A DNA stretch of 64,000 nt, from contig OZ024788.1 of the NCBI GenBank assembly GCA_964017065.1, positions 2,155,021-2,219,020 on the forward strand, given 5' to 3'. The DNA comes from Haliclona indistincta (taxonomy: Eukaryota; Porifera; Demospongiae; Haplosclerida; Chalinidae). Positions 8,448 through 64,000 of this stretch are shown piece by piece. The notes beneath the pieces are model-generated. The model made no database searches, was not told the DNA's origin, and saw only the letters and a list, made by a program, of their open reading frames with translations. Position numbers and translations under genes: made by a program. The number at the start of each line of letters is the position of its first letter. Positions within the stretch are counted from its first letter, which is position 1.

Positions 8448-9596
8448 CTAGATGATGCTGTCTGTCTGGCTGTCTTCTGTTAGATCAATATGTACGCTGC
8501 GTTGTCGTGTTGCCCTCCTCTGTCTCTTAGGCATTTGAGTTTCATCGAATGTTACTCCGCGTCTTTTTGACGAACGACTACTCTGTTGCGGTGGGGTTTC
8601 TTTTGGTTTCGTCTTTGTTGGGGTGGCTCCTCTTGTCTGAGGGTGCTTCTTCGAGCTGGGGGTAGTCGCTCCTGTTGTCAGAGGTTGCTTTTGGGGGTAG
8701 AGTCTTGTAGCTGGAGAAGAACCAGCCTTTCCTCTAGTAGGAGTACCTGGTGCTGTATCTTGGTTTATAGTTGGTGATGATAGTTGCACACTTGGTACTC
8801 TTCCAGTTGCTTGTTGCACACTTGGTCCTCTTCCAGTTGCTTGTTGCACATCAGAACGGACAGCGAGAGAAGGAGTTGTATGTGGAGCTGATGAATTTGG
8901 AGTTGGCTGCTTTTGTTGTGTGCTTGCACCTTTCTTCCTCGGAGGAGGAGTGATAGTGGGAGATGAGGGTGGAGGGGTGTGACTTGGACCTGGCTCTGAG
9001 TACTGGCACATGGTTGATGATGATGCTTCTCCCTTGTACCTGAATGCCATGTAAACTGCGTATGCATAGTATTTCTCTTTTGTTGCTTGTCCAGTAGAGA
9101 ATGACTCGTTGATCACTCTTGGGTCAGGATGAGAGAGAAGGTAGTGATGGAGGAGCTTCTGTTCCATAGCTAGTGCAAAGTCTTCTTGATGCACTCTATC
9201 TCTGCATTTCTCTGGCATTGTCTCTCTAGTAATGGCACCCAGTACCACTAACCCATCTCTACCATACTCTTGCTTCTTATGATCCTGCCAGCGACTGCCA
9301 ATACCATTCTTCTTCCATGTGTGGTGCTTGAGTGGATGAAATTTCTGATGTCCTCTTGCCTTTCTCCTTCTTTTAATATAAGTCTTACCAATGTATATCT
9401 TGGCTATTGTTCTATCTGAATGTAGCTCAAGCTCTCTTACAGTGTCCTCTAGTTGTGCTATCAGCTTCTTCTTGATAGCCTTCACTTCTGTCTGTCCTGC
9501 TATGTTAGCTGGATTGGCTGAATAGTTTCTAACAGCTCCTGTACACAACAGTTCAAATTCAGCTCCACCAATGGTTGTCCTGCTTACGGTAGACAT
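8448..9596 (-). CDS. GIY-YIG-like domain protein with Ser/Thr/Pro tail (family member 1)
   Basis: Family reference copy, 382 aa, single exon, ATG start. The head (residues 1-190) is the shared domain: Y25 in NYSAN, a helical segment (IKKKLIAQLEDTVRELEL, 41-58), Y68-I-G-K-T, R102 and H106 in SRWQDHK, strand GLVVLGAIT, E145 in AMEQKLLHHY, and a closing strand AYAVYMAFRY. The order Tyr, Tyr, Arg, His, Glu parallels GIY-YIG nucleases such as the LEM-3/ANKLE1 group. Fold and activity are inferred, not shown. The tail (191-382) is predicted disordered by composition. It has a SEPGPSHTPPP linker, an RRGVTFDE motif of the PP1-docking RVxF type (about 345-352), basic PKRQRRATRQR, and VHIDLTEDS near the C-terminus, which resembles a SUMO-interacting motif. 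A nuclear protein is likely. Confidence 0.85.
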   Translation of the reverse strand: MSTVSRTTIGGAEFELLCTGAVRNYSANPANIAGQTEVKAIKKKLIAQLEDTVRELELHSDRTIAKIYIGKTYIKRRRKARGHQKFHPLKHHTWKKNGIGSRWQDHKKQEYGRDGLVVLGAITRETMPEKCRDRVHQEDFALAMEQKLLHHYLLSHPDPRVINESFSTGQATKEKYYAYAVYMAFRYKGEASSSTMCQYSEPGPSHTPPPSSPTITPPPRKKGASTQQKQPTPNSSAPHTTPSLAVRSDVQQATGRGPSVQQATGRVPSVQLSSPTINQDTAPGTPTRGKAGSSPATRLYPQKQPLTTGATTPSSKKHPQTRGATPTKTKPKETPPQQSSRSSKRRGVTFDETQMPKRQRRATRQRSVHIDLTEDSQTDSII

Positions 9597-10386
9597 AGCA
9601 CAGACTCACTGTATTATGGTTACGAGGCTAGATCCTTCTCGGCTAGATCAACTAAAGGGCGTGTTTTGCTCTACAGTAAAAGCGGTGTAGTGTAAACTAT
9701 GAATAAAGTTATTCTGCTACGCTATTTGTATTGCAGCTGTATGCTAGCCTCATTCCCAAGATTGTTGAGTCTGGGTATCAGACTGAACATTGTACATGTT
9801 TGTGCATGACCATAAGATTATGGTAGAGATTGGTACATGACTTAAGTAACATTGTAACATTCTGTGTACATGGGTTCCTGTACACAGAACAGGAACCCAT
9901 GATTATAAGTGCACTGAGAATCAAGATTCATTTGTGATGATAGTTTGTAACTCAGTTCATGTTATACTTAACACAGAAACTGGTTATCTATGGTTATGGA
10001 ATGCTGCTAGGATCAGTTTCTGATCTCAACTAGTGAGGATCTTACTTTGGTTCTTTAAGAGCGAGTCTAAGAAGCAGGCTTTAGTTTTGAATTTGACTGG
10101 TTGTGTGTGATTAGAAATAGCATTGTTTGATATCTGTGGTACTGTATGCCTCTGCATGCTGACTGTGTTGTCATGCAGAACGGGGATTTTTAATAGTTAG
10201 ATAACGTTAATAAATAATTATTGTGTACAGTATAGCCAGTTGATTGTGATAGTAACATAAAGTTTGATTAGAAAAAGAACCAAAATTAACCAGCCTTAAA
10301 AGTTACAATAACTTATTAATTACGAAAGTAACTGTGAAATGAAAAACATGACATTTAATGTATTTACTGCGGTCTGCTATTGTGTC
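9597..10386. other. intergenic spacer with short hairpin
   Basis: Holds the upstream region of family member 1, including the AACTATGAATA motif at 9695, and the 3' flank of member 2. A 13-bp perfect stem (CATGGGTTCCTGT at 9869-9881, complement at 9889-9901) with a 7-nt loop is the only other structure noticed. Confidence 0.5.
9695..9705 (-). promoter_or_regulatory. conserved upstream motif TATTCATAGTT
   Basis: On the gene strand TATTCATAGTT, 99 nt upstream of the member 1 ATG. The same 11-mer precedes several other family genes, so it is a candidate core-promoter or initiator element. Confidence 0.4.
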
Positions 10387-11382
10387 TCACTCCTCTGTCA
10401 GATCAATAGTGATGCTGCGTGTTTGTGTGGCTCTTCTTAGTCTTTGCGGCATTCGATTTTCATCAAATCTTACAGAGCGTCTATTTGATGATCGAGTACT
10501 CTGTTGTGTCTCATTTGGTTGCGTGCTCCTCGGTCCAGGGTTTGGTGGTTGATGTGGTTCTCTGTAGAGTCTTGTTGCTGGAGCCCGGCCTCTAGTAGGA
10601 GCACCTGATGCTGTACCTTGGTTCATTGATGATGATGCTCGTCGATTACCTGTTTCTCTTCCAGAAGCTTGTCGCCGATTTGTACGAGCAGCAGTTGAAG
10701 GAATAGCATGTTGAACTGACAAATCTGGAGCTTGTATTTGTTGGACACTTGAACTGGAAGGAGGAGGAGAGGGTGTGGGAGACAAAGATGGGGATGGGCT
10801 TGGGTCTGGTTCTGAGTGCTGGCTCATGGTTGATGATGATGCTTCTCCCTCATATCTGAATGCCATGTAGATAGCATATGCATGGCATTTGTCTTTTGTT
10901 GCTTGTCCAGTGGTGAATGTCTCGTTCACCACTCTTGGGTCAGGATGGGAGAGAAGGTAGTGATGGAGGAGCTTCTGTTCCATAGCTAGTGCAAAGTCTT
11001 CTTGGTGCACTCTACCTCTGCATCTCTCTGGCATTGTCTCTCTAGTAATGGCACCCAGTACCACTAACCCATCTCTACCATAGTCCTTGTGTTTGTGTTC
11101 ACCCCAGCGACTGCTAATACCGTTCTTCTTCCATGTGTGGTGCTTGAGTGGGTAAAATCTCTGATAAGTCTTACCAATGTAGATCTTGGCTATTTTTCTT
11201 CCTGATTCTATTTGAAGTGCTTTAATTGTGTCCTCTAGTTGTGCTATTAGCTTCTTCTTGACTGCCTTCACTTCTGTCTGTCCTGATAGGTCAGCTGGAT
11301 TGGCTGAATAGTTTCTAACAGTTCCTCTACACAGCAGTTCAAATTCAGCTCCACCAATGGTTGTCTTGCTTATGCTAGACAT
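10387..11382 (-). CDS. GIY-YIG-like domain protein, family member 2
   Basis: 331 aa, single exon. The start is the ATG at 11382 (MSSISKTTIGGAEFELL), which aligns with MSTVSRTTIGG of member 1; the frame is open for six more codons but only to a TTG. Predicted active-site set complete: Y25, Y68 (IYIGKT), R92, H96 and E135. The loop after YIGKT is about ten residues shorter than in member 1. The tail is Ser/Pro-rich (PSPSPSLSPTPSPPPSSSS) and ends with RRSVRFDENRMPQRLRRA followed by TIDLTEE at the very C-terminus. It therefore keeps the same RVxF-type, basic and SIM-like order as member 1, its closest relative by tail. No break seen. Confidence 0.85.
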   Translation of the reverse strand: MSSISKTTIGGAEFELLCRGTVRNYSANPADLSGQTEVKAVKKKLIAQLEDTIKALQIESGRKIAKIYIGKTYQRFYPLKHHTWKKNGISSRWGEHKHKDYGRDGLVVLGAITRETMPERCRGRVHQEDFALAMEQKLLHHYLLSHPDPRVVNETFTTGQATKDKCHAYAIYMAFRYEGEASSSTMSQHSEPDPSPSPSLSPTPSPPPSSSSVQQIQAPDLSVQHAIPSTAARTNRRQASGRETGNRRASSSMNQGTASGAPTRGRAPATRLYREPHQPPNPGPRSTQPNETQQSTRSSNRRSVRFDENRMPQRLRRATQTRSITIDLTEE

Positions 11383-12117: not shown

Positions 12118-12786
12118 TCAAGTATGTTTCATTTTCTTCACTGGAGATGATTCTGGGGTCGGGTTTTTACGTGGAGAACTTCTTTTCGTTGGCTGCTCAT
12201 CTAGTTCCATAGATTCATCAGATGTTGGAACTTCGTCATCATATCTGAAGGCCATATAAATTGCGTATGCATGATGGCTATTTTCACAATTAGAGAATGT
12301 GTCCCTGACCACTCTTGGGTCATGATCGAAGAAATAGAAGTGATGATAGAGCATCTCTTCCATAGCTAGTGCGAAGTCTTCTTGTTGCACTCTATCTCTG
12401 AGTTTTCCGGGCACTGTTTGTTTAGTAATGGCACCCAGTACCACTAGTCCATCTTTGCCATAGTCACAGTCTTGCTGTTTATGGTGATCCCAGCAACTGC
12501 TAATGCCACCAATTCTCCATGTGGTTGAATCACAAGGACTAAATCTTACATATTTTTCTCGATTTCCGCTTGATCTTTTCTTTCTCTGAATGTGGGTTTT
12601 GCCGATATAGATTTTGTCTATAGTTCTGCCTGACCCAATCTCAAGATCGTTTACTGTGTCCTCTAGTTGTGTAGCAAGCTTCTGCTTAATGAGATTTATA
12701 TCAGTCTCTCTTACTATGTCAGTGAGGTTGAAGGAGCAGTTCCTAACATCTCCTGTACACAACTGATCGAATCCAATTCCAGCCAT
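12118..12786 (-). CDS. GIY-YIG-like domain protein with short tail, family member 3
   Basis: 222 aa from the ATG at 12786 (MAGIGFDQLC). The open frame continues 21 codons upstream to a GTG, but a CACAG splice-acceptor-like site lies just before that, so an upstream exon cannot be excluded. Two predicted catalytic positions are changed: the first Tyr is Cys (C17 in NCSFN) and the Arg is Cys (C98 in SSCWDHHK). Y60 (IYIGKT), a His at 101-102 and E143 (AMEEML) remain. The tail is only about 35 residues, acidic then basic (SPRKNPTPESSPVKKMKHT), with an NLS-like end but no SIM-like motif. A degenerate or non-catalytic paralog is likely. Confidence 0.8.
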   Translation of the reverse strand: MAGIGFDQLCTGDVRNCSFNLTDIVRETDINLIKQKLATQLEDTVNDLEIGSGRTIDKIYIGKTHIQRKKRSSGNREKYVRFSPCDSTTWRIGGISSCWDHHKQQDCDYGKDGLVVLGAITKQTVPGKLRDRVQQEDFALAMEEMLYHHFYFFDHDPRVVRDTFSNCENSHHAYAIYMAFRYDDEVPTSDESMELDEQPTKRSSPRKNPTPESSPVKKMKHT

Positions 12787-12857
12787 GGGGAGACCAGTCA
12801 AAGCAGCAATCTTGAAGTGTCGATCTTGTCGAAGTGAAGGGTTTGCCACAATCTGTG

Positions 12858-15182: not shown

Positions 15183-15706
15183 CTAAATCAATTCATCTAA
15201 AATACCATAAGGGTCTATTACTGATAAGCCGTCGATATGTCCCCGTACCAGTTCTCGATTGGTCGTGCCTGATTCTGTGTCTTGTACGATGGAATCTCTA
15301 CTATCTTCACGGTTTACTGCAAATGTTATTCTGCACCCTGAAGAACGAATTCCAGCTGAATTTTGTTGGTGGCTTGCAAATCCTGGGATGATTCAGTCTG
15401 TTTCTGTCCTCTTCGGTATACTTTTAAGTTTTTTTTGCACGAGCTACCTTGGATTTACTAGAGCTTGTAGGAGGAGACTGTGGTGGAGGGGTGTGGCTTG
15501 GACCTGGCTCTGAGTTATTATACATACTTGATGAAGATGATTCTTCTGTGTAACTAAAGGCTATGTAGATGACGTATGCTATGCAGCGACGTTTTGTTGT
15601 TCTGCCGGTAGTGAATGTCTCGTTGACCACAGGCACTTTTGGGTCTGAACGAGAGAGAAGGTAGTGATGGAGGAGCTTCTGTTCCATAGCTAGTGCAAAG
15701 TCTTCT
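15183..15706 (-). pseudogene. 3' half of a SDIS-type family gene fused to member 4
   Basis: On the minus strand the frame DFALAMEQKLLHHYLLSRSDP to SSSSSMYNNSEPGPSHTPPP matches the gene at 45826-46809 from its predicted catalytic helix onward. Everything upstream (the first three quarters of the domain) is missing, and the sequence joins member 4 at 15706/15707. The tail frame breaks at about 15424 after KVARAKK through a small insertion, yet the remaining tail (RITFAVN-type motif, ending near 15183) is still clearly alignable with 45826-46110. There is no start codon of its own. It is a remnant left by an unequal deletion between two tandem genes. Confidence 0.8.
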
Positions 15707-16357
15707 AGTAATAATGGTTTGGCGGTTGCCAGCATTTCTGGCGATGTTTACAGGACAGAGTTGTTGCAACATACGTGGGCGTGCTGGTGCTTGCAGAGAC
15801 CTACCACTACTGCTGTCATATCCGTCGTCGTAACTAAAAGCCATATAGAGGGCATAGGCTTCTTGGCAGCGCTGAAGATTGTATCCAGAGTTGAAACCAT
15901 CATTGACCACTCTTGGGTCAGGATGGGAGAGAAGGTAGTGATGGAGAAGCTTCTGCTGAAAAGCTACTGCAAAGTCTTCTTGGTGCACTAGATCTCTGCA
16001 GCTCTCTGGCACTGATTCTTCAGTGAAGACACCCAACACCACTAACCCATCCCTACAGTCTCTACGTCTGTGAAAACCCCAGCATTGACCAATGCCGTGA
16101 CTAATCCATGTCTCTGGATCAAGAAGGTCTAATATTTGATGTTCTTTATTTTCTCTGATATAAGTTTTGCCTATGTAGATGTGGGATATTTTTCTGCCTG
16201 TTCCACTCTCAAGAGCTTCAACAGTATCATCCAGTTGTTTGACAAGCTTCATTTCGATGCTTTCTACAGTATTCTCTGAACCCAAGTCAGCTAGATTGAA
16301 CGAGTAGTGTTGAACTGTTCCGCAACACAATGTTTCAAAATCAACTCCACTATACAC
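15554..16357 (-). CDS. chimeric GIY-YIG-like gene, family member 4
   Basis: The frame opens at 16357 directly after a splice acceptor (CTGCAG then GTG TAT AGT), so a short first exon is expected. ATG-GCA-AAA-AAG followed by GT at 16607-16618 is a candidate, giving MAKK before VYSGVDFETLCCG. The domain has Y18 (HYSFN) and Y61 (IYIGKT), but the predicted Arg is Cys (C92 in GQCWGFH) and the predicted Glu is Gln (Q134 in VAFQQKLLHHY), so catalysis looks lost. After the closing strand (ALYMAFSYDDGYDSS) about 40 own residues follow. The frame then crosses into the neighbouring gene remnant out of phase and stops at 15554, adding about 50 residues of nonsense tail. Confidence 0.65.
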   Translation of the reverse strand: MYSGVDFETLCCGTVQHYSFNLADLGSENTVESIEMKLVKQLDDTVEALESGTGRKISHIYIGKTYIRENKEHQILDLLDPETWISHGIGQCWGFHRRRDCRDGLVVLGVFTEESVPESCRDLVHQEDFAVAFQQKLLHHYLLSHPDPRVVNDGFNSGYNLQRCQEAYALYMAFSYDDGYDSSSGRSLQAPARPRMLQQLCPVNIARNAGNRQTIITRRLCTSYGTEAPPSLPSLSFRPKSACGQRDIHYRQNNKTSLHSIRHLHSL

Positions 16358-17082
16358 CTGCAGTTATAAAAATATTATTTACAAGCTACGTACATGCATT
16401 GTGTAAATAATGCTTGTGTACAGACAACTATGGAACAGCAACTCTTTTATCACTGCCTTCTCTCTCTCACTTCTCTCTCATGTACCAATGCCTGAAAGCA
16501 TACACTAACTGGCAGAATAATTGATTGGGCTTTCAGTAAAATAAGTTGGTTCTTGGGAACTATAATACAGCTAGTAACACTCAAGAGTTAGGAGAGAAAT
16601 GATGACCTTTTTTGCCATGGGTGATTGCAATATTGAAAGCAACTGGCTCAGGGACGATTTGTTCACTTGCTTGACTAACTAGCATGTGCTTCTCACATGA
16701 TCATATATTATTCTTGGATTCTGCTTGTTATTATTGGTAGACAATGGTTGGTATTTTAGGACAACCCTGAGTAGTTTCTGCTATAGTATGGGTGTGGCTG
16801 TCCTTTGTACTTGTCGTCAGTGTTAAACTGATACATGTTCCATAATGAGCACACACATTCTGATCATAATGTTGATGACTGCTTGTAGCTGGGTGGAAGA
16901 AGCTGATATGAATGTGTGGTAGAGTCTTGGTTTGCTTCAGATTTTTTGAGCACGTCTGACTTGTATGTGTTTTTATTATTATTATTATGTGTTTTTTCTT
17001 ATAAGTAGCTTTTATACTGAGTTTGGTGTTTGCAATAATAACAATAATAAGCTGTGACAATGACAATAAAAATTTACGGTTT
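16358..17082. other. intergenic spacer with cassette copy 1
   Basis: From about 16681 it carries a copy of a repeated non-coding cassette (CATGATCA..., then TTATTATTGGTAGACAATGG, then GGACAACCCTGAGTAGTTTC). Related copies lie near 20820, 27660, 29890 and 34510. The candidate first exon of member 4 is at 16607-16618. Confidence 0.6.
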
Positions 17083-20000
17083 TTAGTCTACATTTATTAC
17101 ATCAATTTCATCTGGTTCTGGTTCATTCAAAAGAGCTAATAAATATTCATCAACGTTAACATCAAAATTCAAATCTGCATCATCATCTATTGTATCAACA
17201 TCTATTGTAGCAGAAGAAGAGCTTTTGTCTGTGTCAGCATCTGAGTCGTTGCTTGAGTTTTGAGAAGATGAAGATGACGAATGTGTCATCGAAGTTGAAG
17301 CTGATGAGTCATCATCGCTGCTGGAGTCTTGAGAAGATGAAGGCAAGGAGTCGTCATTATTGCTGGAGTCTTGAGAAGATGATGAAAGAAAGATGAAAGG
17401 AGATGATGGGATGATGCGAGAAGACGATGAAGAGTTAATGTCAGTTGTTGAGCTGTTAGTACTTGAAGATGAACGTAATGAGTCGTCATTGGTTGAATCT
17501 TGAGAAGATGAAGATGACGAATGATTCGTTGAAGTTGAAGGTGATGAGTCATCATCGTTGCTTGAGTCTTGAGAATATGAAGATAACGAATGAGTCATCG
17601 AAGTTGGAGGTGATGAGTCATCATCGCTGCTTGAGTCTTGAGAAGATGATGAAAAAAAGATGAAAGGAGATGATTTGACGAAGTGAGAGGACAATAAAGA
17701 GTTAATGTCAGTTTTTGAGCTGTTAGTGCTTGAAGATGAACGTAATGAGTCATCATTGGTTGAATCTTGAGAAGATGATGAAGAGATGATAGGAGATAAT
17801 GGGATGATAGGAGAGGACAATGAAGAGTTAATGTCAGTTGTTGAGCCGTTAGTACTTTCTTCAGAGAGTTCGAATTCCATGTAGCTATCAGTAGGTGCAT
17901 GCGTTATCAATGAATGACAATTTTGAGCGCCTACTCCTAAGTTTTGGCTGTAAGGTGACTCTGGAGCAGTAGTTGAAGAAGAAGGGCGGTTACATTGCCT
18001 TGTTATTTGATTCACAGCATTTGGCTGTATCTGGATATTGAGCTGGTCACTTGTTTGTGTCCTTTGGTCTTCTGATTCATATTTGTCTCTTGTGTCATTT
18101 CTTGCTCTTTTAGCTTGAGGTGGAGAGTCATCGTCTGTTGAGGAGGAGGAAGATGAGCTCTCAGGACTGCACCGTTTAAAGGCAATATTGCCCTGGGCTT
18201 GCTCCTGGTCTGTGGCTCTTGCAATAGGTGAAGAACTTGTTGGATGTGTAGAAAGGTCTACTTCATCTGGTGATGAAGAGTCATCATTGCTGCTTGAGTT
18301 TTGTGAATGTGATGTGGCTTTTGGAGAAGAATTATAATTCATCACGTACAATTTTTCGGGAGTACATGTAGACACTTGAGATCGATAAGGATAAGTAGAT
18401 TTTGAAGTGGCTCCTTCTGATTCCTCAGGTGATTTTGCAGCACTGAAAATAAGAGATTGTTTTGAAGGAGGAAGAAGAGAATGGGAGTAAGTTGATGGTG
18501 TATGGAAGGGATTTGTCAGTTTCAATCTTTTTCTCGGAGGAGTGGGCGGAGTAGGTCGAGAAGGGGTAGTTGGCAATGGGAGGAAATGGCGTAGTTCTGA
18601 TGCTGAATCTTGGTTTGCTGCTAGTGATAACAATTGCTGACCTTCTGCTCTTGTTTTAGAGCAACAAGGCGGAAATATCTCGCTTGTGACTGAAGTTGAA
18701 GGAGCTTGTTGTTGTGTTGATCTTTCATTTTGTTTTGAAATTGCAGAAAGTTGATGGCTTAGCCCTGGTGGGCTTTCAGTAGAGTAACATGTTTCTGCTT
18801 GCGGTGTTTGTCCACTGATTGTTTGAGGAAATTGTTTTTCATTTTTAGATGCTGGAGAAGTGTTTCGAAGTAAAGGACGATTCGATCTTTTCCTGAGTCG
18901 TAATGACAGTCTTTTCTTTCTTAGAGGTAGTGGACAAGTATGGCTAGGCTCTTGCAAGTTTGATATTTGTGTGGTTGGTTGTAGTTCAGCTCCTTCTGAT
19001 TCCCCAGGTGATTTTGCACCACTGAAAAAAAGAGATTTTTTCGGAGGAGGATGAAGAGAAGGGGAGAAAGTTGATGATGGAGTGCGGAAGGGATTTGTCA
19101 GTTTCAATCTTTTTCTTGGAGGAGAGGATGGAGTAGGTCGAGAAGGGGTAGCTGGTGGAGAGTACTGGTTTTGTGCAGAAGAACAGGATGGCGTAGGAGG
19201 TTGGTTTAACTGAGCGAGAGGTTGTTGCTTTTCTGGTGTCTGCTTGAGAATCCCTTTTCTTTGAGGGGTTGATGGAGTAGAGGTGTGGCTTTGCCTAGGA
19301 CTACTAGCTTGGTTTACAGTTTGTGCTCTTGCTTGTCTTGTTTCAGAAGTAGGAGTAGAACTGAAGGTGACTCGAGACCTTCTTGTAGGAGAAGGAGAAC
19401 AAGCAGATGAAAAAGGCCGAGAAAGGGAGAGAGAGGGGCGGTTTTGAATAGGCATGTCTCTGCTAACAGCTGGTGAATATACATTGGTTTCTTGTGCAGC
19501 TAGCTGTCTAGGAAGACACGTGGTAACTGGTATTTGCAGTGGTGCTGCTGGCTCTGATTGTTTTAGACTTGTGGTATGTATTCCACTGCTTGAAGGATAG
19601 TGATGGGCAGGAGTGTGGCTTGGTCCTGGTAGTGTGTGCATATCATCACTTGCTGGTGAAAGATTTTGGTCTTGTTTGCTGTTTAAAACAGTGAGAGGAG
19701 AATGTGGTGGCCGTCTTTGAGTAGAGCTTGAGTCTGAGTCGCTTGCTTCTGTCGGAGAGAATGGAGGAGTGTTTGTGTCTTCTTCCTCTGAAAAGGTTAC
19801 ATCTTCATATCCGAATGCTATGTAGACTGCATATGCAAAATATTTATCTTTGGTTACTTGTCCTGAAGAGAATGTATCATTGATCACTCTTGGGTCAGGA
19901 TGAGGGAGAAGGCAGTGATAAAGGAGCTGCTGTTCCATAGCTAGCGCAAAGTCTTCTTGATGCACTCTACCTCTGCATCTCTCTGGCATTGTCTCTCTAG

Positions 20001-20370
20001 TAATGGCACCCAGTACCACTAACCCATCTCTGCCATAGTCTTCATGTTTGTGAGCATTCCAGCGACTACAAATACCCTTCTTTCTCCATGTGTAACTGTT
20101 GACTGGATCAAACTTCACGTATCCTCCTCCTGGCTTCTTCCTTCGCATAATATAAGTCTTACCAATGTATATGTTGGCTATTGTTCTATCTGATTGGAGC
20201 TCAAGCTCTCTTACAGTGTCCTCTAGTTGTGCTATCAGCTTCTTCTTGATATCCTCTGCTTCTCTCTGTCCTGCTATGTCAGCTGGATTGAAGGAGTAGT
20301 TTCTAATAGTTCCTGTACAAAGTATTTCAAAGTCAGCTCCTCCCTGGGTTGTTTTGCTGACAACAGACAT
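17083..20370 (-). CDS. GIY-YIG-like domain protein with 900-residue Ser-rich tail, family member 5
   Basis: 1095 aa in one exon, ATG start (MSVVSKTTQGGADFEILC). The domain is complete: Y25, Y68, R103, H107, E146. The tail is the longest uninterrupted one in the array. In order it has an LPGPSHTP linker, SRVTFSS (RVxF-type), QRKGILKQTPEKQ (a good match to the [GS]ILK phosphatase-docking motif), two PPRKRLKLTNPF NLS-like motifs, an AKRARNDTRDKYESEDQR segment shared with the gene at 38-41.5 kb, and a Ser/Asp repeat region (SQDSSNDDDSS units). It closes with an acidic end (EPDEIDVINVD). The many S-D/E contexts would suit acidophilic kinases such as CK2. Its 5' end and flank recur as a stub at 29349-29431. 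Confidence 0.85.
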   Translation of the reverse strand: MSVVSKTTQGGADFEILCTGTIRNYSFNPADIAGQREAEDIKKKLIAQLEDTVRELELQSDRTIANIYIGKTYIMRRKKPGGGYVKFDPVNSYTWRKKGICSRWNAHKHEDYGRDGLVVLGAITRETMPERCRGRVHQEDFALAMEQQLLYHCLLPHPDPRVINDTFSSGQVTKDKYFAYAVYIAFGYEDVTFSEEEDTNTPPFSPTEASDSDSSSTQRRPPHSPLTVLNSKQDQNLSPASDDMHTLPGPSHTPAHHYPSSSGIHTTSLKQSEPAAPLQIPVTTCLPRQLAAQETNVYSPAVSRDMPIQNRPSLSLSRPFSSACSPSPTRRSRVTFSSTPTSETRQARAQTVNQASSPRQSHTSTPSTPQRKGILKQTPEKQQPLAQLNQPPTPSCSSAQNQYSPPATPSRPTPSSPPRKRLKLTNPFRTPSSTFSPSLHPPPKKSLFFSGAKSPGESEGAELQPTTQISNLQEPSHTCPLPLRKKRLSLRLRKRSNRPLLRNTSPASKNEKQFPQTISGQTPQAETCYSTESPPGLSHQLSAISKQNERSTQQQAPSTSVTSEIFPPCCSKTRAEGQQLLSLAANQDSASELRHFLPLPTTPSRPTPPTPPRKRLKLTNPFHTPSTYSHSLLPPSKQSLIFSAAKSPEESEGATSKSTYPYRSQVSTCTPEKLYVMNYNSSPKATSHSQNSSSNDDSSSPDEVDLSTHPTSSSPIARATDQEQAQGNIAFKRCSPESSSSSSSTDDDSPPQAKRARNDTRDKYESEDQRTQTSDQLNIQIQPNAVNQITRQCNRPSSSTTAPESPYSQNLGVGAQNCHSLITHAPTDSYMEFELSEESTNGSTTDINSSLSSPIIPLSPIISSSSSQDSTNDDSLRSSSSTNSSKTDINSLLSSHFVKSSPFIFFSSSSQDSSSDDDSSPPTSMTHSLSSYSQDSSNDDDSSPSTSTNHSSSSSSQDSTNDDSLRSSSSTNSSTTDINSSSSSRIIPSSPFIFLSSSSQDSSNNDDSLPSSSQDSSSDDDSSASTSMTHSSSSSSQNSSNDSDADTDKSSSSATIDVDTIDDDADLNFDVNVDEYLLALLNEPEPDEIDVINVD
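17300..17870 (-). repeat. 89-residue tandem repeat in member 5 tail
   Basis: Two strong copies with a 267-bp period: the block NDDSLRSSSSTNSS-TDINS...SSPFIF-SSSSQDSS starts near 17745 and again near 17478 on the minus strand. Partial SQDSSSDDDSS units flank both sides. The period is a multiple of three, so the frame is kept. Confidence 0.75.
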
Positions 20371-25640: not shown

Positions 25641-25649
25641 TGCACCTAG

Positions 25650-52200: not shown

Positions 52201-53028
52201 TCTAGTGATTCATTCAAAAACTGCACAGCAAGAACCCTGTGCAAATGCACTTACCTCCTCTCCTTCTTTTAACTCCAACTAAAGAACTAGCTTGAGCTGT
52301 ATGAGAAGAGATCGAAACATAATTTTAAAGATATTGTTTTACTATGTGGTTAAAGGATACTTACGTTGGTTAGATGAGCTTGCGGAGTCATCAGGCTTAC
52401 CCAGCTCATCATAATATGTGAAGGTCATGTATACTACAAATGTCCTGCAATTTTCTGGTATTTCTGAGTCACTTGATTGACTTGACGATACCGATTGTCC
52501 AGTAGAATCGTTTTGTGGCTTCTTTTTCTTTCTGCGAGTTGTGGATCCACTTGTAAATGTCCTGTTGACAACTCTTTCGTCAGGATGAAATAGAACATAG
52601 TGATGGAGAAGCATCTGTTCTATGGCTAGTGCGAAATGTTCATGGTTTTTCTTTCCTCTAAGCTTGCCACTAATTTGACTTACTGCATCTCGTGTGAATG
52701 CTCCCAATATTACCATCCCATCTCTGCCTCGTTTTTTTTTACTGTGCCTTTTACAGCGTCTGTATATGCCATTTTCAGAACTGTACTTTCTATTTGAATA
52801 GTAAAATGACTTTCCAATATAGAAGTGTTTTATTTTCTTGTTTGAACCATCTTCCAGCTGTTTTATTGTCTCTTCTAATTGATCAATGATTTTGTCTCTG
52901 ATTTGCACTGTAGATGTCAGTGAGCCTATGTCAGCAAGGTTAAATGCATAGCCTTTAACAGAACCTGTGCAAAGATCTTCGAAGGTTACTGGTTTCGACT
53001 TGTCGCTCTTAGCTGTTGGTGAAGCCAT
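49283..53028 (-). CDS. three-exon GIY-YIG-like protein with 890-residue Ser/Thr/Pro tail
   Basis: Exons 52365-53028, 52255-52296 and 49283-51963, GT-AG with phases that agree; 1128 aa. The ATG at 53028 (MASPTAKSDKSKPVTFEDLC) was chosen because the frame upstream has only a TTG. Domain: Y27 (GYAFN), Y70 (FYIGKSFY), an RRCKRHS version of the Arg/His motif, and E137 (AIEQMLLHHY). A Lys-rich insert (RRKKKKPQ) precedes the last strand. Exon 2 is 42 nt and encodes a basic VKRRRG. Exon 3 opens DVETDGDPD, then the tail: PRVTFSLPP (RVxF-type), QRKGILRQTTEN ([GS]ILR-type), NLS-like PPPAKRTKLF and PPTKKPKFSS. The end is VVTISDSESDSDSDSEL followed by VVPEKFKQ, resembling SIMs next to acidic-kinase sites. 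The large ORF has no ATG start of its own. Confidence 0.8.
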
Positions 53029-54028
53029 GGGCTCTGATATAGTTGATATTTTGTAGACAGCAAACAAAAAAACAAGGATTTATTTTGAACTGCTTTGAAC
53101 ACTAGCACATTTATGACAAAGTGCCATGAAGAATCTTCCAAGTACTAATCATTAATCTCAGCTACTCACTTTAGTATATCTACTGCAGAGTCCAAGAGTT
53201 GTGTTTGCCTAGAAGCCGCTAGCTGAATAAACTGTGTGTGGTCTTGAGCTATGAATAGTAGTATCCAGCGGTCTTTAGCAAAGTCTTGAATCTAATTAAG
53301 CTGCTACTCTTTAGTCTTTAGTTATTATGTCAACAATTAACACATTAGAACCAACAAAACAGTAACCAATATTCAGCTGTTGAACAGATTGAAGAAATAG
53401 CTGATACGCATAATCAATCAGACAATCAGAAATATAAATACTAAGTTATGTTGTGCTTAGATATGTTCAGGACCAGTTGTAGCTATATCAGATGCAAAAG
53501 TAATATCAAGTTTATAAAGCTGACTGTTAATTGTTTATTAGCAAATGAGTTGTATTAATTTGCAATGTATTCACAGAGGTGACCATGAAGCTGTACGTAC
53601 GTTAAAAAGAACAATGTATCTTAGTATGTACGAACGTACTTACTGAGTTTTAAAAGAATGCTTTTTAAAGTTCATTGTGCTCATTTAGCTACAACTGGTC
53701 CTAAAAAATATTTAAGCATAACATAACTTAGTATTTATATTTCTTGATTATGCAGAATGAGATCTGCTAATTCTTGTTCAATCTGTTCAACAGGTGAATA
53801 TTTTGTCACTATAGTTGACATCATGTGCTGATGAGTCATGTCTACTGTTTGGCTTCTGATTTGAATTTTAAACAGTTTCCTGTACAATGTATGTAACTCA
53901 ATACCCTATGAATAATACTAGATCAACTTAGCACCGTTTCAAAACATTTATTTGCTAAGCAACTTTTAATTACAACAACTTTAACTGTAAAAATATAAAA
54001 TATAAAATCTACTCGCATACTACAGTTT
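53029..54028. other. 1-kb intergenic spacer
   Basis: Contains GAGCTATGAATAGTAGTA (53247), shared with 41630. No gene or strong repeat seen. Confidence 0.45.
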
Positions 54029-54928
54029 TCATTGTTTTACGTTTGTATCAAATAATATAGCAAGTTCAAGCATTATCTCATCTATTAGCTCATCCATAGT
54101 ATGTGGTAAAAAGGAGAAAGTCATGTAAATTACATATGCACAGTACGTTGGGCTTGGTGGAGTAGTAGGATTACATGTGTGATCTAGATCATTGTAATCG
54201 AAGTGAACACCTGGAGATGCTTGATTATTATCCTTAGTGTGTTTGGTTGTTCCTCCCTCATTGAATGATTTGTTTACCGTCAGCTTCTCGGTATCAAAGA
54301 TTTGAAAATGATGGATGAGTCTCTGTTCCATTGCCACTGCAAGATGTTCTTGTGACCTTCGTGAACCAGCGGGCAAATCCTCTCTAGTAAAGGCACACAG
54401 TACCACCATCCCTTCAGAGTTTTTTTGGTGTTCACTCCAACGATCATTAATACCTTTCATTGTCGTATTAGTACCTGTCATTGTCCATGTTCTATGATCC
54501 AAACGATCAAAGATTTGATCAAAGATTTGTCCGTCTTTAATACCTACGTATGTCTTTCCAATATATATCTGTCCTATTGTCCTTTTCAATCTTGCTTCTA
54601 GTATAAGTATTGTATCCTTCACATGCTCGATAAGATTTTCCTCCATTCTTACTTTGTCTCTTTCTGCATGGGTAATATCTAGGAGGAAAAAGTAGCGACC
54701 TTCTAATCCTTCTCTAAATGTTGCAGTTTTTTCTGGCTTTTCTGATATCGTTGTCTCTGTTACTGTTCTTGTTGTCATTTTGGCTGTTCCTGGTGCTAAG
54801 TTAGCTGCTTCATCTTGTGTTACCTCTCCTTTTGCTGTTGTTCGAGCTATTGTTTTAATTGTCTTGATTGGTTCAGCTGCTTCAGTTGTTTTCAACGTTT
54901 TTGTTGTCACTGTTGTTGTAGTACTCAT
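54029..54928 (-). CDS. divergent GIY-YIG-like protein with Thr-rich N-terminus
   Basis: 299 aa, single exon, ATG at 54928. Unlike most members it has a 70-residue Thr/Lys/Glu-rich leader (MSTTTTVTTKTLKTTEAAEP) before the domain. The first-strand motif is RYFFLLDI rather than NYSFN. Y-I-G-K-T, DRWSEHQ and AMEQRLIHHF keep the predicted catalytic residues, and the closing strand is AYVIYMTFSF. An insert of about 30 residues (HFDYNDLDHTCNPTTPPSP) precedes that strand. Closest relative: exon 1 of the fusion gene at 31998-32892 (shared MVVLCAFTEDHLPAGSRRSQ-type block). No disordered tail. Possibly closest to the ancestral form, but that is a guess. Confidence 0.82.
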   Translation of the reverse strand: MSTTTTVTTKTLKTTEAAEPIKTIKTIARTTAKGEVTQDEAANLAPGTAKMTTRTVTETTISEKPEKTATFREGLEGRYFFLLDITHAERDKVRMEENLIEHVKDTILILEARLKRTIGQIYIGKTYVGIKDGQIFDQIFDRLDHRTWTMTGTNTTMKGINDRWSEHQKNSEGMVVLCAFTREDLPAGSRRSQEHLAVAMEQRLIHHFQIFDTEKLTVNKSFNEGGTTKHTKDNNQASPGVHFDYNDLDHTCNPTTPPSPTYCAYVIYMTFSFLPHTMDELIDEIMLELAILFDTNVKQ

Positions 54929-55752: not shown

Positions 55753-57018
55753 TCAATGGTTTGGAAAACTTTGTTTAAACTTTTCAGGTCCTATAACTAT
55801 TTCACAGTCACTGTCTGAATCACTGTCAGATATCGTGACAACCTCACAGATGTCTTGTGCATTTGCCTTTCTTGAAGATGAAGGAGATAAACAAATAATG
55901 TCACTTGGTTCTGCTGGTGATGTAGAGTTGATGATGGAAAAATGGCGGCTTTGACTTGTTGCAAGAGAATGGTATTCGCTGTATGTGGCTGAAGTAGACA
56001 GGTTTGGTCTTTTTGAAGGTCGAGGAGATTTTCCAGCATTAGGAGTGAGGTTTTTAGTCTTGGGAAGAGGGAGGTACCCTGGTAAGCTTGTAGTTAATCG
56101 ATCAGAAGGATTGGTTGGAGATGCTTGATGTCGTGTTGACTTAATTTGTGTCTGCTCATGACATCTCTTTCGTGAGTAAGATACAGGTGTTGTGTGGGTG
56201 TGGCTTTGTTCTAGCATCATAAAACGCGATGTGGTAACTGAGGAATTGTGGTTACTCATGTCAGGAAATGTGTCAAGTGTCTGAGGAATGTTTTGAGGTC
56301 TTGATACTGTTGCTTGGTTCAAAGTTGGCTGTAAATTCACTTCTATGCCTATACTTTGTGACCCTTCAGTTGTAAGAGTAATGCTTACACTCTTTATAGT
56401 TGAAGAATGTGGATTTGAAGTGCCACACGAAGGAGAGGTTACTGGCGAAGTTTGTACATTAAGATATGGTGCTGAAGGAGGAGTTGCTGTATGACGTTGA
56501 CAAGAGGTGTTGCTTGAGCCATATGCTGTGCTTGTGCTCACAGTGTGTGGTAGATTAGCTCTTCCTGCTTGTTGATCATCGTGGGGCAATCTTTCACTAT
56601 TGAAGGCGGGGATTAAATTTCGTGCAGAAGTAAAAGGCTGATGCTGGGGTTGCTTTTCTGGTATCTTTTTCAGTATTCCTCTTCCTCGAGGTGTTGACGG
56701 ACAAGAGGTGTTGCTTTTCACCATGGTTCGCTTGCTTGCTAGCTGGCTATTGAGACCAGCGTCGGGTAAAGGAAGAGAACTGAAGGTGACTTGAGGCCTT
56801 CTTGTTGGTGAAGGAGAGGAAAATTGATGAGCAGGAAAGTTACTTGATAGTAACACTACGTCGTCAGTAGCTGTTAGTGATGGCTGCACACTGTTCATGT
56901 TGCTTGTATCGTTGAGGAATAGTGTTGGTCTCTGAGCAGAGCTTGTGCTTTGATCATGCTCATTTGGTTGTATCGGAAAGGATGGAGAAGTGTCCATTGG
57001 TTCTTCCTCTGAAAAGGT
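55753..57018 (-). pseudogene. tail of the 57.0-kb gene, cut off by an in-frame stop
   Basis: Continues the frame of 57019-57594 without a shift after one TAA codon: TFSEEEP, then MDTSPSFPIQPNEHD, down to the stop at 55753. It has full family tail features: RRPQVTFSS (weak RVxF-type), RGRGILKKIPEKQ (good [GS]ILK-type), SKRPNLS, and the end EVVTISDSDSDSDCEIVI followed by GPEKFKQ, the same terminal motif as 49283-53028. An internal ATG at 56997 could start a headless 414-residue product. Confidence 0.75.
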
Positions 57019-57594
57019 TTAATCTTCGTATCTGAATGCCATGTAGACTGCGTATGCATAAGAAACTTGTTTCGTTGTTGCTCCAGTAGAGAATGTCTCA
57101 TTGACCACAGGCACTTTTGGGTCAGGATGAGAGAGAAGGTAGTGATGGAGGAGCTTCTGTTCCATAGCTAGTGCAAAGTGTTCTTGATGTACTTGACTAC
57201 ATCTCTCTGGCATTGTCTCTCTAGTAATGGCACCCAGTACCACTAACCCATCTCTACCGTAGTTGTGTTTCTTATGGTCCTGCCAGCGACTGCTAATACC
57301 CTTCTTTTTCCATGTGTTACTATTGAGTGGATCAAACTTCAAGTATCCTCCTCCTGGCTTCTTTCTTTGCTTAATAAATGTCTTACCAATGTATATCTTG
57401 GCTATTGTTCTATCTGAATGTAGCTCAAGCTCTCTTACAGTGTCCTCTAGTTGTACTATCAGCCTCTGCTTGATGTCCTCTGCTTTTCTCCGTCCTGATA
57501 GGTCAGCTGGATTGAAGGAGTAGTTTCTAACAGCTCCTGTACACAACAGTTCAAAGTCAGCTCCTCCCTGGGTTGTTTTGCTGACAACAGACAT
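57019..57594 (-). CDS. GIY-YIG-like head ending at an in-frame stop
   Basis: 191 aa from the ATG at 57594 (MSVVSKTTQGGADFELLC); ten more open codons upstream lead only to a TTG. The domain is complete with NYSFN, IYIGKTFI, SRWQDHK and AMEQKLLHHY, and ends RYED then TAA (57019-57021). Member 5 has GAT GTA ACC TTT TCA at this point and this gene has GAT TAA ACC TTT TCA, so the length is unchanged and two substitutions created the stop. It may be a genuine domain-only protein, a stop-readthrough site, or a nonsense-disabled gene. Confidence 0.8.
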   Translation of the reverse strand: MSVVSKTTQGGADFELLCTGAVRNYSFNPADLSGRRKAEDIKQRLIVQLEDTVRELELHSDRTIAKIYIGKTFIKQRKKPGGGYLKFDPLNSNTWKKKGISSRWQDHKKHNYGRDGLVVLGAITRETMPERCSQVHQEHFALAMEQKLLHHYLLSHPDPKVPVVNETFSTGATTKQVSYAYAVYMAFRYED

Positions 57595-58218
57595 GGCACA
57601 GCAGTTCAGTAAGAGTCTACACAAACTATGAAACTGACGCTTCCTGGCTCTAGATTCTGTGTACTTGTACTCTTACAAGTATCAATAATATTATTATAGG
57701 GCAGTATACATGACTGTGGTTTGAGTGTGGCTGTGTATTCAATGTCCCTAATGTTATTATAAACTACATCTATAGAACACAAACTACATAAACTACATCT
57801 ATAGCACTTCTATGTGGTTATGTACCTCTGTGACTATACCATTGTATGCTTTCTGTTTGTTAGTCTCATGACTGTAGTAAAGTACATAGTTGACTGAATG
57901 ATTGTTCATGGCTATGTGATGTAGAATAAATATTATATTGGAGAGATAGATTGTTTAGAATAATGTGAGGACATGGCTGTATAAACTGTTTTTTGACTAT
58001 AGCTATGAGTAGAGATACAGCTGACAGTGTATACTGTTTGACTACTGTGAACTACAATTACAAATCTTGATTTACGTTTAACACTAACAATCGTGCTTAA
58101 AACTGGTTAAACTGAAATTTTGTCTACATCTGGTCTTCATAAAAATCTTTCTAATCTTGATAAATTATATCGGGCATTGTTTTAAATATAATTGTAGCTT
58201 GCTCTGGCTCAGAATATC

Positions 58219-59588: not shown

Positions 59589-60563
59589 CTATGAACTTGC
59601 TGAATCAAGTAGGGAATTATCTGGTGGTGAATCACCTTGTGGAGGACTATCTCCTAGCATTGAGCCGTTCTCTATTTCATCTTCAGCTCTTGGAGGATCG
59701 TTTTGAGCTTCATGTTCACGTTGCGTACTTTCTGATGCTGAATCACATAGTGTAGCAAATAGTGACTCCAACTGGAAACTATCTAGCGATGAATCTCTTA
59801 GTAGTAACGAGTCGTTTTCTACTTCGTCTTCTGCTCTTAGGGTGTTGCTTGGTTCATTTTGAGCTTCTTGTGTACTTTCTGGTGATGAATCCAGTAGTGA
59901 ATCATCTGGTGGTGAATTGCCTTGTGGAGGACTATCTCCTAGCAATGAGCTGTTTTCTATTTTATCTTCTGCTTTTGAAGTAGAATTTCGAGCATTGAAA
60001 TCACTAGCTTCTTCACATCTAAAGACTATGTAGATAGCATATGCATGGTGGTTGACTTCAGTAAGATGCTCAGTAGTGAATGTCTCATTTGCTACTCTTG
60101 AATCATGAATAAAGAAGGAGTGTTGAAGCAGTCTTTGTTCCATAGCAAGGGCAAGATCTGCTGGTGACATTCGAGATCTTCTGGGCAATGTCTCCCCTGT
60201 AATGGTACACAAAACCACTAGCCCGTCTCGCCCATGATCCTGTCTGTGATGTTGACGCCAGCAACTGCTAATACCAGTCATCTCCCAAGTACTGGGATTG
60301 AGATGATCAAAAGCCACATATCCTTCACCTTGTGCCTGTGGAATGTAAGTCTTCCCGATATACATCTTGGCTATTCTTCTTCTTCTTGCTAGTTCTCTTA
60401 CTGTCCTCTCCATTTGACCTTTCAGTTTCTGCTCCATACTACTGATGGGTGTGTCTGTTCCTAAGTCCACTAGATTGAAGGAGTAGCCTCTGACACTTCC
60501 TGTACATAGTTGACTGAATTCAACTTTATTGATGTCCATGGTGGAGTCTGGTAGGCTTGCCAT
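59589..60563 (-). CDS. GIY-YIG-like protein with acidic SPPQGDSPP repeat tail
   Basis: 324 aa, single exon, ATG at 60563 (MASLPDSTMDINKVEFSQLC). Domain: GYSFN, MYIGKTYI, then SSCWRQHH with Cys for the predicted Arg, and AMEQRLLQHS with Glu kept. The tail is acidic rather than basic. It consists of three imperfect units of about 35 to 55 residues (AEDKIENSSLLGDSPPQGNS, AEDEVENDSLLLRDSS, AEDEIENGSMLGDSPPQGDS) separated by ESTQEAQNEPSN-like linkers. It has no RVxF, ILK or SIM-like motif. The upstream motif AACTATGAATA sits only 13 nt from the ATG. Confidence 0.85.
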   Translation of the reverse strand: MASLPDSTMDINKVEFSQLCTGSVRGYSFNLVDLGTDTPISSMEQKLKGQMERTVRELARRRRIAKMYIGKTYIPQAQGEGYVAFDHLNPSTWEMTGISSCWRQHHRQDHGRDGLVVLCTITGETLPRRSRMSPADLALAMEQRLLQHSFFIHDSRVANETFTTEHLTEVNHHAYAIYIVFRCEEASDFNARNSTSKAEDKIENSSLLGDSPPQGNSPPDDSLLDSSPESTQEAQNEPSNTLRAEDEVENDSLLLRDSSLDSFQLESLFATLCDSASESTQREHEAQNDPPRAEDEIENGSMLGDSPPQGDSPPDNSLLDSASS

Positions 60564-62280: not shown

Positions 62281-63824
62281 TTATTGTGCATCATTTTTGT
62301 CATTTTCTTCACTAGATTCTTCACTTGTCATTTCTTCTATAGTAGACATATATTCAGATTCCATATCTTCATCTTCATCACTTGACGTATCTTCATCACT
62401 TGACATATCTTCATCTTCATCATTTGACATATCTTCGTCTTCATCTTCATCATTTGACATATCTTTGTCTTCATCACTTGTCATATCTTCATCACTTGAT
62501 GGTTCTTCATCAGTTGGCATTTCTTGTTTGCTTTCTTCATCAGACATTTCTTGATCAAAAGTTTCTTTAGAGTCAGCTATCAAATCGTTATAATGAAGTT
62601 AGTTAACAATATCAGTCATATGATAAAAAAGCTAACCTTCTGCTGGGGAAGAAGCTTGTGTAGTTCCGCCATCAGGATCGCCATCAGTTTCAACATCTAT
62701 AAGAATAGAATTGAAAGATAGGTCTAAATTTTTAACGCTGCTTATAATTCTGATTTACTGACATAGCATTTACAGGGTTCTCGAAGAACCAAACTTATAC
62801 CCATTAAAAATTGAGCACTTAAATACCTGTCTTAGTATGATTTCTTATATGCATATCCTCACATCCTAAATATCATATTTTACTTATCCTGACTAAACAA
62901 ATGGATTACCGACAGCTGATTTGAACCGTAAACCAAATGGAGCTTGAAAAAACCAAATCGAGTGATTCATTCAAAAACTGCCCAGCAAGAACCCTGTGCA
63001 AATGCACTTACCTATTCTATCAGGGCTTTTAGCTGTAACAACTGAAGAACTAGCTTGAGCTGTATGAGAAGAGATTGAAACATAATTTTAAAGATATTGT
63101 TTTACTATGTGGTTAAAGGATACTTACGTTGGTTAGAGCTTGACGAGTCATCAGGATTACCCATCGTAACAAGCTCATCATCATAATATGTGAAGGTCAT
63201 GTATACTACAAATGTCCTGCTGTTGTTATTTCCTGGTATTTCTGAGTCACTTGATTGACTTGACGATACCGATTGACTTGACGATAATGATTGTCCAGTA
63301 GAATCGCTTTGTGGCTTCTTTTTCTTTTTGCGAGTTGTGGATCCACTTGTAAATGTTCTGTTGACAACTCTTGGGTCAGGATGAAATAGAACATAGTGAT
63401 GGAGAAGCATTTGCTCTATGGCTAGTGCGAAATGTTCATGTCTTTTCCTTCCTTTAAGCTTGCCACGAATTTTACTCACTGCATCTCTTGTGAATGCTCC
63501 CAATACTACCATCCCATCTCTGCCTCGTTTTTTTTTACTGTGCCTTTTCCAGCGTGAGTATGTGCCATCTTCAGAACTGTACTTTCTATTTGAATAGTAG
63601 AATGACTTTCCAATATAGATGTGTTTTATTTTCTTCTTTGAACCATCTTCCAGCCGTTTTATTGTCTCTTCTAATTGATCAATGAGTTTGTCTCTGATTT
63701 GCTCTGTAGATGTCAGTGAGCCTATGTCAGCAAGGTTAAATGCATAGCCTTTAACAGAACTTGTGCAAAGATTTTCGAAGGTTACTGGTTTCGACTTGTC
63801 GCTCTTAGCTATTGGTGAAGCCAT
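62281..63824 (-). CDS. four-exon GIY-YIG-like protein with acidic tail
   Basis: Exons 63128-63824, 63012-63059, 62637-62696 and 62281-62576; all GT-AG, phases agree and total length is a multiple of three; 366 aa. Start MASPIAKSDKSKPVTFENLC. Head closely matches 52365-53028, with GYAFN, IYIGKSFY, SRWKRHS (the canonical Arg context that its sister has changed) and AIEQMLLHHY. The Ser-rich insert before the last strand has an extra SSSQSV unit. Exon 3 gives DVETDGDPDGGTTQAS, homologous to the start of the sister's giant last exon. Exon 4 is instead almost pure Asp/Glu/Ser/Met (SDEDEDMSNDEDEDEDMSN) ending NDKNDAQ. Same gene skeleton, different tail. Confidence 0.82.
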
Positions 63825-63885
63825 GGGCTCTGGTATAGTTGATATTTTCTAGACAGCAAACACAAAAACAGAAATTTATTTTGAA

Positions 63886-64000
63886 TGTATATGTTGGCTA
63901 TTGTTCTAACTGATTGTAGCTCAAGCTCTCTTACAGTGTCCTCTAGTTGTGCTATCAGCCTCTTCTTGATAGCCTTCACTTCTGTCTGCCCTGATATGGT
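63886..64000 (-). pseudogene. partial family domain at right edge
   Basis: The minus strand from the edge reads ISGQTEVKAIKKRLIAQLED, then TVRELELQSVRTIANIYI, after which homology stops at the YIG motif and runs into the unrelated flank of the preceding gene. It continues beyond the window upstream, so it is the 5' part of a gene truncated inside the presumed active site. Confidence 0.75.

Follow-up and report, generated by a model that had tools for sequence, protein, structure and literature searches.

A one-strand array of related genes

The DNA described here (the window, 64,000 nucleotides) lies at positions 2,155,021-2,219,020 of contig 6 of the sponge Haliclona indistincta, whose genome comprises 144.03 Mb in 46 contigs, and has a GC content of 36 to 43% in 4-kb blocks. 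It is occupied by an array of related genes that encode a conserved domain of about 180 residues (the head), followed in many members by a long tail, and we tentatively read the array as a fast-evolving nuclear family whose heads carry a presumed active site like that of the GIY-YIG nucleases. An iterated hidden Markov model (HMM) search of the window's open reading frames (ORFs) of 30 residues or more identified 22 heads that are complete or nearly so, every one of them on the minus strand, in ORFs lying between 8,451 and 63,848, together with three partial heads (15,427-15,747; 29,339-29,452; and 63,812-64,000, the last cut by the window edge). The same search gave no head match on the plus strand among these ORFs, and none in any of 20 first-order Markov shuffles of the window. 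The motifs named in the first-pass annotation align in fixed order across the heads, and its description of 22 minus-strand heads is borne out. The genes and related features are as follows.

8451..9596, minus strand: gene 1, head (9006-9596) and 187-residue tail ending VHIDLTEDSQTDSII
10390..11382, minus strand: gene 2, head (10822-11382) and tail ending ITIDLTEE
12121..12810, minus strand: gene 3, head and short tail; Cys at the Arg position
15557..16363, minus strand: gene 4, head; Arg102 to Cys, Glu145 to Gln; no in-frame Met at head start
15520..15735, minus strand: partial head relic (C-terminal third)
17086..20373, minus strand: gene 5, head (19777-20373) and 899-residue Ser-rich tail
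21387..21989, minus strand: gene 6, head, no long tail; Ser at the Arg and Lys at the Glu position
22730..23759, minus strand: gene 7, head (23190-23759); tail in another frame from 23209 downwards
28169..28774, minus strand: gene 8, head and short acidic end; Arg102 to Cys
29339..29434, minus strand: truncated 5' copy, about the first 29 codons of a head
30556..31167, minus strand: gene 9, head and short end; Cys at the Arg and Lys at the Glu position
31903..32892, minus strand: gene 10, diverged head (32170-32796), insertion before the last strand
34989..35552, minus strand: gene 11, head and short end; Glu145 to Lys
36116..37195, minus strand: gene 12, head (36560-37195) and tail
39983..41533, minus strand: gene 13, head (40967-41533) and 330-residue tail
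42101..43177, minus strand: gene 14, head (42542-43177), 91% identical to that of gene 12
43529..45214, minus strand: gene 15, head (44609-45214) and tail ending SDVIDLTKED
45829..46809, minus strand: gene 16, head (46201-46809) and tail
47211..48908, minus strand: gene 17, head (48312-48908) and tail ending SDVIDLTKED
49286..52012, minus strand: tail-like ORF of 909 residues, no recognised head
52345..53067, minus strand: gene 18, diverged head (52384-53019), insertion before the last strand
54032..54928, minus strand: gene 19, diverged head (54080-54724)
55756..57597, minus strand: gene 20, head (57022-57597), one TAA, then tail (55756-57018) in the same frame
59592..60563, minus strand: gene 21, head (59988-60557) and tail; Arg102 to Cys
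63108..63824, minus strand: gene 22, diverged head (63156-63815)
63839..64000, minus strand: part of a further copy across the window edge

The array outruns the window by about 35 kb. A genome-wide search with the gene 1 head gave 41 matches, counts of this kind being lower bounds, of which 38 (partial copies included) lie on the minus strand of a single contig 6 block of about 90 kb (2,164,026 to 2,254,302), in agreement with the large tandem expansion first proposed; the other three comprise a single diverged copy, on contig 9, and a short piece on each of contigs 2 and 4. The contig-9 head, when used as the query, matches itself and 30 places on contig 6, and nowhere else in the genome.

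Every head is an uninterrupted ORF, and an in-frame Met is present at or before the head start in 19 of the 22. For the 62 of 231 window head pairs with a synonymous divergence (dS) below 1, the ratio of non-synonymous to synonymous divergence (dN/dS) has a median of 0.41 (range 0.27 to 1.08), from which we conclude that the heads are coding and kept, though fast-changing; the four youngest pairs have values between 0.66 and 1.08. Within a ten-member core group residues 31-40 are the most variable, and residues 111-120 and 141-150 hardly vary. The truncated 5' copies share upstream DNA with full genes and are therefore read as relics of tandem duplication.

Such relics and truncated copies would also be expected if the array were a graveyard, with survivors, of domesticated or still mobile selfish nucleases of the homing-endonuclease or Penelope-like type, and the lone head pieces on contig 4 (about 70 bases) and contig 2 (about 100 bases) and the Penelope-looking GIY-YIG domains of this genome would suit that origin too. 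We nevertheless consider it decidedly improbable: the array copies lie on one strand in one 90-kb block with a single diverged copy elsewhere, dN/dS is about 0.4, and the 10 window proteins scanned contain no reverse transcriptase or integrase match, terminal repeats not having been searched.

The two isolated head pieces (L040:4895-4996 on contig 2 and L041:4925-4994 on contig 4) are nearest to different paralogues and both start near the same point of the head, about residue 86; no other head part was found near them within their 9.9-kb loci. Tail-like ORFs that resemble neighbours' tails and have no recognised head lie at window positions 24579-25649, 38002-40227 and 49286-52012, and some of them may be the ends of broken genes. 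A repeat at 26424-27650 is common to several places in the contig 2 locus (82-95%), and low-complexity stretches with Ser/Leu- and Thr/His-repeat ORFs adjoin the array end (5082-6803). One diverged array copy (L042:6153-7037) has as its insertion before the last strand a long run of a QQQQAG-like repeat, which is absent from the similar copy at L043:3798-4448.

Separate histories of heads and tails

The heads and tails of the array have separate histories. Genes 12 and 14 share upstream DNA (98% identical over the aligned part, 86% covered) and, as listed, closely similar heads, and only 11% of the shorter tail aligns; the heads of genes 1 and 5, and those of genes 1 and 20, are 84% identical with no tail match. 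The tails of genes 15 and 17 are 79% identical over their whole length and their heads 76%, and genes 7 and 12 share upstream DNA, head and tail alike. For genes 12 and 16, dS is 0.08 in the head and 0.76 in the tail, and for genes 15 and 17 it is 0.68 and 0.26 respectively, the tail values being rough because of the low complexity of tails. This discordance is most simply explained by recombination or gene conversion between copies.

Fold and conserved residues of the head

Two AlphaFold2 models of the head were obtained, model 1 from a 59-row alignment and model 2 from a 35-row alignment whose query was P0070, the contig-9 protein. Model 1 has a mean predicted local distance difference test score (pLDDT) of 88.9 and a predicted template-modelling score (pTM) of 0.86, the head blocks of model 2 have pLDDT values of 92 to 98 across residues 11 to 170, and both show the succession strand, long helix, strand, helix, strand, short helix, long helix, strand. 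The first two strands are separated by a long helix (residues 38-60 in model 1), which corresponds to the helical insertion that had been proposed there.

GIY-YIG nucleases are described as having two motifs followed by an Arg and then a Glu (PMC1564403), and the conserved residues of the heads come in a similar order. In model 1, Y25 belongs to strand 24-27 and Y68-I-G-K to strand 64-76; helix 97-106 contains R102 and H106, helix 137-155 contains E145, and N163 follows the latter helix. An Arg in helix 1 and a Glu in a later helix, both features of GIY-YIG proteins, are thus present as R102 and E145; the letters G-I-Y are absent, the Tyr of the first motif being represented by Y25. Y25 is kept in 19 of the 22 window heads, Y68 in 21, G70 in 22, R102 in 16, H106 in 22, E145 in 18 and N163 in 19, and among 125 head rows, which repeat some window copies, the counts are 98 for Y25, 108 for Y68, 125 for G70, 124 for K71, 111 for R102, 123 for H106, 116 for E145 and 103 for N163.

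The loss of these residues was compared across 98 array-type heads from which repeats had been removed, using 519 pairs of conserved columns and p-values that are all inflated by relatedness. R102 and E145 are lost together in six heads, out of 10 and 7 losses, which ranks fourth of the 519 pairs; R102 and N163 rank ninth, and E145 and N163 only 37th. Co-loss of R102 with E145 and N163 is what a shared site would predict.

There is also a local profile match to LEM-3, obtained after hand-trimming both profiles, in which YIGK falls on the LEM-3 YVGK over 12 columns with a score of 19.9, as compared with a maximum of 17.6 in 150 column-permuted nulls. Without a null, the heads score 16.2 and 19.5 against this genome's own SLX1 and 15.5 and 14.3 against its own Penelope domain, and the mutual scores among SLX1, Penelope and LEM-3 are 10 to 14. 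Since known GIY-YIG families fail to find each other in the same profile test, its silence says little.

Tails and SUMO-interacting-motif-like ends

The three tails examined are rich in Ser, Thr and Pro, and the tail of model 2 lies mostly below pLDDT 50; together these strongly suggest that the tails are disordered, as first described. The further description of the tails as nuclear in type holds in part, through ends that resemble SUMO-interacting motifs (SIMs). SIM patterns were sought in the last 60 residues of 17 own tails of 100 residues or more and of the 66 long tails of proteins found by database search. With three of four such patterns there are matches in 20 of the 66 tails and four of the 17 own tails, and both counts exceed all of 1000 shuffles (means 0.8 and 0.2, maxima 5 and 2, respectively). 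The rows are, however, related: the four own matches represent only two different ends, each present twice, and some of the 66 are copies of own genes. The form [PILVM][ILVM]DLT alone accounts for 13 of the 66, where shuffling gave a mean of 0.05. The patterns overlook the ends of genes 1 and 2, HIDLTED and TIDLTEE. A hydrophobic core flanked by acidic or Ser residues, a feature of SIMs, is present in part of the tails. In the relatives P0058, P0060 and P0061 there are PHD/RING-like matches at the C end instead, of which only that of P0060 passes the Pfam cut-off; P0062 ends like P0061 by eye.

Is the head a GIY-YIG domain?

A number of observations weigh against reading the array as GIY-YIG-like heads borne on SIM-bearing tails, and we gather them here. 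With regard to the tails, the ORF ends within 25 residues of the head in six of the 22 window ORFs, so a long tail is not universal (one of these short ORFs has a stop right after the head with the tail resuming in the same frame, and another has its tail in a different frame), and 13 of the 17 own long tails have no match to the SIM patterns used. With regard to the residues, R102 is absent from six and E145 from four of the 22 window heads, Ser replaces Y68 in all 16 rows of the contig-9 branch, and co-loss is stronger for some other conserved pairs (Y25-D158, for example) than for R102 and E145. Among the structural comparisons, Foldseek against the PDB gave no GIY-YIG structure in any of the 19 matches of one model or in the best 50 of 93 of the other, and VIA gave none among the matches listed, although VIA re-aligned Foldseek candidates only (107 and 422) and a missing match in either does not prove a new fold. 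The sequence profiles are similarly silent: no GIY-YIG family is among the 13 weak Pfam families matched by the 22 heads at E values up to 1, genome searches with PF22945 and PF01541 gave three and five matches, none of them in the array, the untrimmed hhalign comparison with LEM-3 gave probabilities of 0.3 for the array heads and 0.2 for the contig-9 branch, and the global trimmed score against LEM-3 is 2.6 as compared with a null mean of 3.3.

Searches of the heads against Pfam and PDB sequences yielded no useful match and no GIY-YIG family. Pfam gave no useful head match for 10 window proteins, the 22 heads, 16 A5 rows and seven further proteins, nor among the best 25 of 52 weak families for the 59 A2 alignment rows, and NCBIfam and PHROGs gave none for five proteins. 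The best PDB match by sequence is COP1 (E 0.01, full protein, spanning head and tail), and by profile the best E values are 0.7 and 0.77 for two profiles, with no match for the third. The first-pass statement that no described family has such a build agrees with these libraries (Pfam, NCBIfam, PHROGs and PDB sequences). In BFVD, two of 31 rows are named GIY-YIG, both of them weak (39 columns at E 6.7 and 51 columns at E 7.6). Folds of OmpA/MotB, FakB/DegV and Rid type recur among the weak rows, and these were not taken as kin because they are mutually inconsistent.

The head could be viewed as a degenerate former enzyme in structural or germline chromatin proteins whose tails are the working part, in keeping with the window heads that lack the Arg or the Glu, the diversity and Ser/Thr/Pro-richness of the long tails, the PHD match of P0060 and the weaker PHD/RING-like matches of P0058 and P0061. 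This seems improbable to us, given that the Arg is kept in 111 and the Glu in 116 of the 125 head rows, and that heads align where tails do not in most of the 40 gene pairs listed. A possibility that we take more seriously, and consider quite credible, is that the head is a new alpha/beta domain unrelated to GIY-YIG, not a nuclease, which binds a ligand, chromatin mark or protein through K71, R102, H106 and E145, the array being a nuclear family concerned with recognition or transcription. The negative searches are what such a domain would give, but known GIY-YIG families also miss one another in the same profile test, and a missing Foldseek or VIA match does not show novelty; moreover, six residues of GIY-YIG type occur in order and in place, with R-x3-H spacing, and R102 is co-lost with E145 and N163. 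The proposal of GIY-YIG-like heads is favoured by residue order, secondary-structure placement and R102 co-loss; weighing against it are the missing profile link, the absence of a GIY-YIG structure from the PDB matches listed and the Ser at Y68 in the contig-9 branch. We regard it as no more than plausible.

Comparison with known GIY-YIG proteins

LEM-3/ANKLE1 (COG3680, PF22945) and SLX1 are both animal GIY-YIG nucleases, and the array might be a local expansion of one of them, that is, ordinary DNA-repair paralogues. By eye, LEM-3/ANKLE1 and the heads have in common a Y-[IV]-G-K strand (YVGK in LEM-3), R-x3-H, A-x3-E-x3-[IL], a later Asn in most rows and, in the longer rows, an insertion between the first two motifs. 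However, the YIG Tyr and the Arg are 34 residues apart in the heads and eight in the LEM-3 row P0102; the array consists of dozens of single-ORF copies with C-terminal tails and the LEM-3 locus of one gene matched in pieces; and no ankyrin, LEM or zinc-finger match was found in the 10 window proteins scanned. The genome already has its own LEM-3/ANKLE1 locus (contig 10, three pieces) and SLX1-like locus (contig 9), and the Pfam models that recognise these find no array copy: PF22945 is not among the families matched by the 22 heads at E up to 1 and finds only the contig-10 locus in the genome. As no significant profile similarity of the heads to either family, or tree placement inside it, was found, we consider this origin highly improbable, and since both loci are retained the array is better seen as an addition than as a replacement.

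SLX1-SLX4 is a GIY-YIG nuclease complex reported to bind SUMO (PMC4726241), and in the array the head and the SIM-like motif would sit on one chain. Unlike SLX1, the 10 window proteins have no zinc-finger (RING/PHD-type) match; PHD/RING-like matches do occur in the relatives named above. The 'Unc-1' domain of ANKLE2 is described as GIY-YIG-like by structure, as found with Foldseek, with no clear GIY/YIG motifs and no detected nuclease activity in that account (PMC13179284); the heads, by contrast, keep motif residues and have no GIY-YIG among the Foldseek PDB matches listed. A precedent for Ser at Y68 is provided by the account of R.Hpy188I, in which Lys replaces the YIG Tyr, Gln replaces the Asn, and the Arg is off its usual place in some homologues (PMC2630997), although this is a bacterial restriction enzyme with an HHSEARCH GIY-YIG probability there of 0.946, as compared with non-significant values for the heads. 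Penelope-like elements, in which a reverse transcriptase is fused to GIY-YIG, differ in that no reverse transcriptase was matched in the 10 window proteins. In the sponge genus Ircinia, balancing selection on an unspecified GIY-YIG gene has been reported (PMC7990798).

Elsewhere in the genome, four places on contigs 3, 5 and 7 (L052, L053, L054 and L055) have equal GIY-YIG Pfam scores, and L052 looks Penelope-type. Inside the ANKLE1-like gene on contig 10, overlapping ORFs at L048:1674-2749 contain repeats of AIIDAIGMCLTVICHVMPPL and similar sequences, suggesting that the end of the exon that encodes AIIDAIG of the GIY-YIG domain has been copied in a tandem array.

Relatives and variable gene content

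A set of 5.8 billion proteins yielded 101 relatives (68 by single-sequence and 34 by profile search, one in both), which carry no source-given name and whose sole precomputed Pfam domain is one PHD finger; 15 of them are 99.6 to 100% identical to genes of this genome itself. Viral contigs, prokaryote genomes, and phages and plasmids gave no useful head match, and the own SLX1 and Penelope fragments as queries found nothing in viral contigs. In a tree of 111 heads, from which those 15 were excluded, the contig-9 copy belongs to a separate clade of 13 rows with support of 100/100, and comparison of the array and contig-9 branch profiles gives a probability of 99.9. Many of the array subfamilies mix own genes with relatives from other assemblies, so that of the earlier view of a large lineage-specific expansion the size holds, and the confinement to one lineage only in part.

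Fourteen relatives share a longest contig of 1,366,213 bases and 13 share one of 431,213, which suggests that there are arrays in other assemblies too, only the longest contig being listed per protein. Another 16, with a contig of 270,534 bases, were compared with their best matches in the window and the rest of the array: four are 99-100% identical, three 91-97% and nine 57-87%. From this mixture it seems that a second assembly, of the same or a very close species, holds a different gene set. One relative, P0003 (654 residues), has two heads in one chain with tail sequence after each.

The contig-9 copy (L039:4564-5505; 4,388,063-4,389,004) is lone and diverged, with a tail that is rich in Gln, Tyr and Arg by eye. 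Its relatives among the proteins found are 46-67% identical, which suggests a conserved gene, possibly the one from which the family stems. About 2 kb downstream there is an ORF that by eye resembles gag-pol.

A candidate nuclear conflict family

The explanation that we favour, at rather less than even confidence, is a fast-evolving tandem family of nuclear proteins with a remodelled alpha/beta head, a GIY-YIG-like presumed site and a role in conflict. The presumed active site (Y68, K71, R102, H106, E145 and N163) would resemble the GIY-YIG constellation within a strongly remodelled fold. The disordered tail would carry the head into the nucleus, where the SIM near the C end of a share of the long-tailed members may dock it on SUMO-rich sites such as repair foci, nuclear bodies or foreign DNA, so that heads would act on nucleic acid under the guidance of SUMO on the substrate or body. 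Copies would multiply by tandem duplication and heads recombine with different tails, the combinations continually changing as they do in families engaged in genome conflict or intrinsic immunity. It is because of the fast change, copy turnover, exchanged tails and lost presumed enzymatic residues that we take the array to be under conflict.

A bolder version, which we think unlikely, makes the head a new animal-specific enzyme or recognition domain of unrecorded alpha/beta fold, and the array a diversifying nuclear repertoire in which heads are recombined with different SUMO-targeted tails and the set differs from one individual to another. It would be the counterpart, inside the nucleus, of diversified immune-receptor arrays, and would be directed at foreign or selfish DNA.

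No published description of such an array was found in the titles and abstract starts searched. The SIM-like ends, the head-tail mosaicism and the apparently variable gene content go beyond the first-pass annotation and are what make the locus most interesting. The family is unnamed in the libraries searched, yet fills 90 kb of one chromosome and seems to be multi-copy on long contigs elsewhere. If its head is a GIY-YIG enzyme it represents a further animal branch beside SLX1 and LEM-3/ANKLE1, and the only one known to us that is multi-copy and fast-evolving; otherwise it is a domain that is modelled with confidence and for which our searches gave no fold match. In either case the SIM-like tails, the recombination of heads and tails, and the seemingly variable copy content point to an arms race within the nucleus, an aspect of invertebrate immunity and genome defence that has been little explored.

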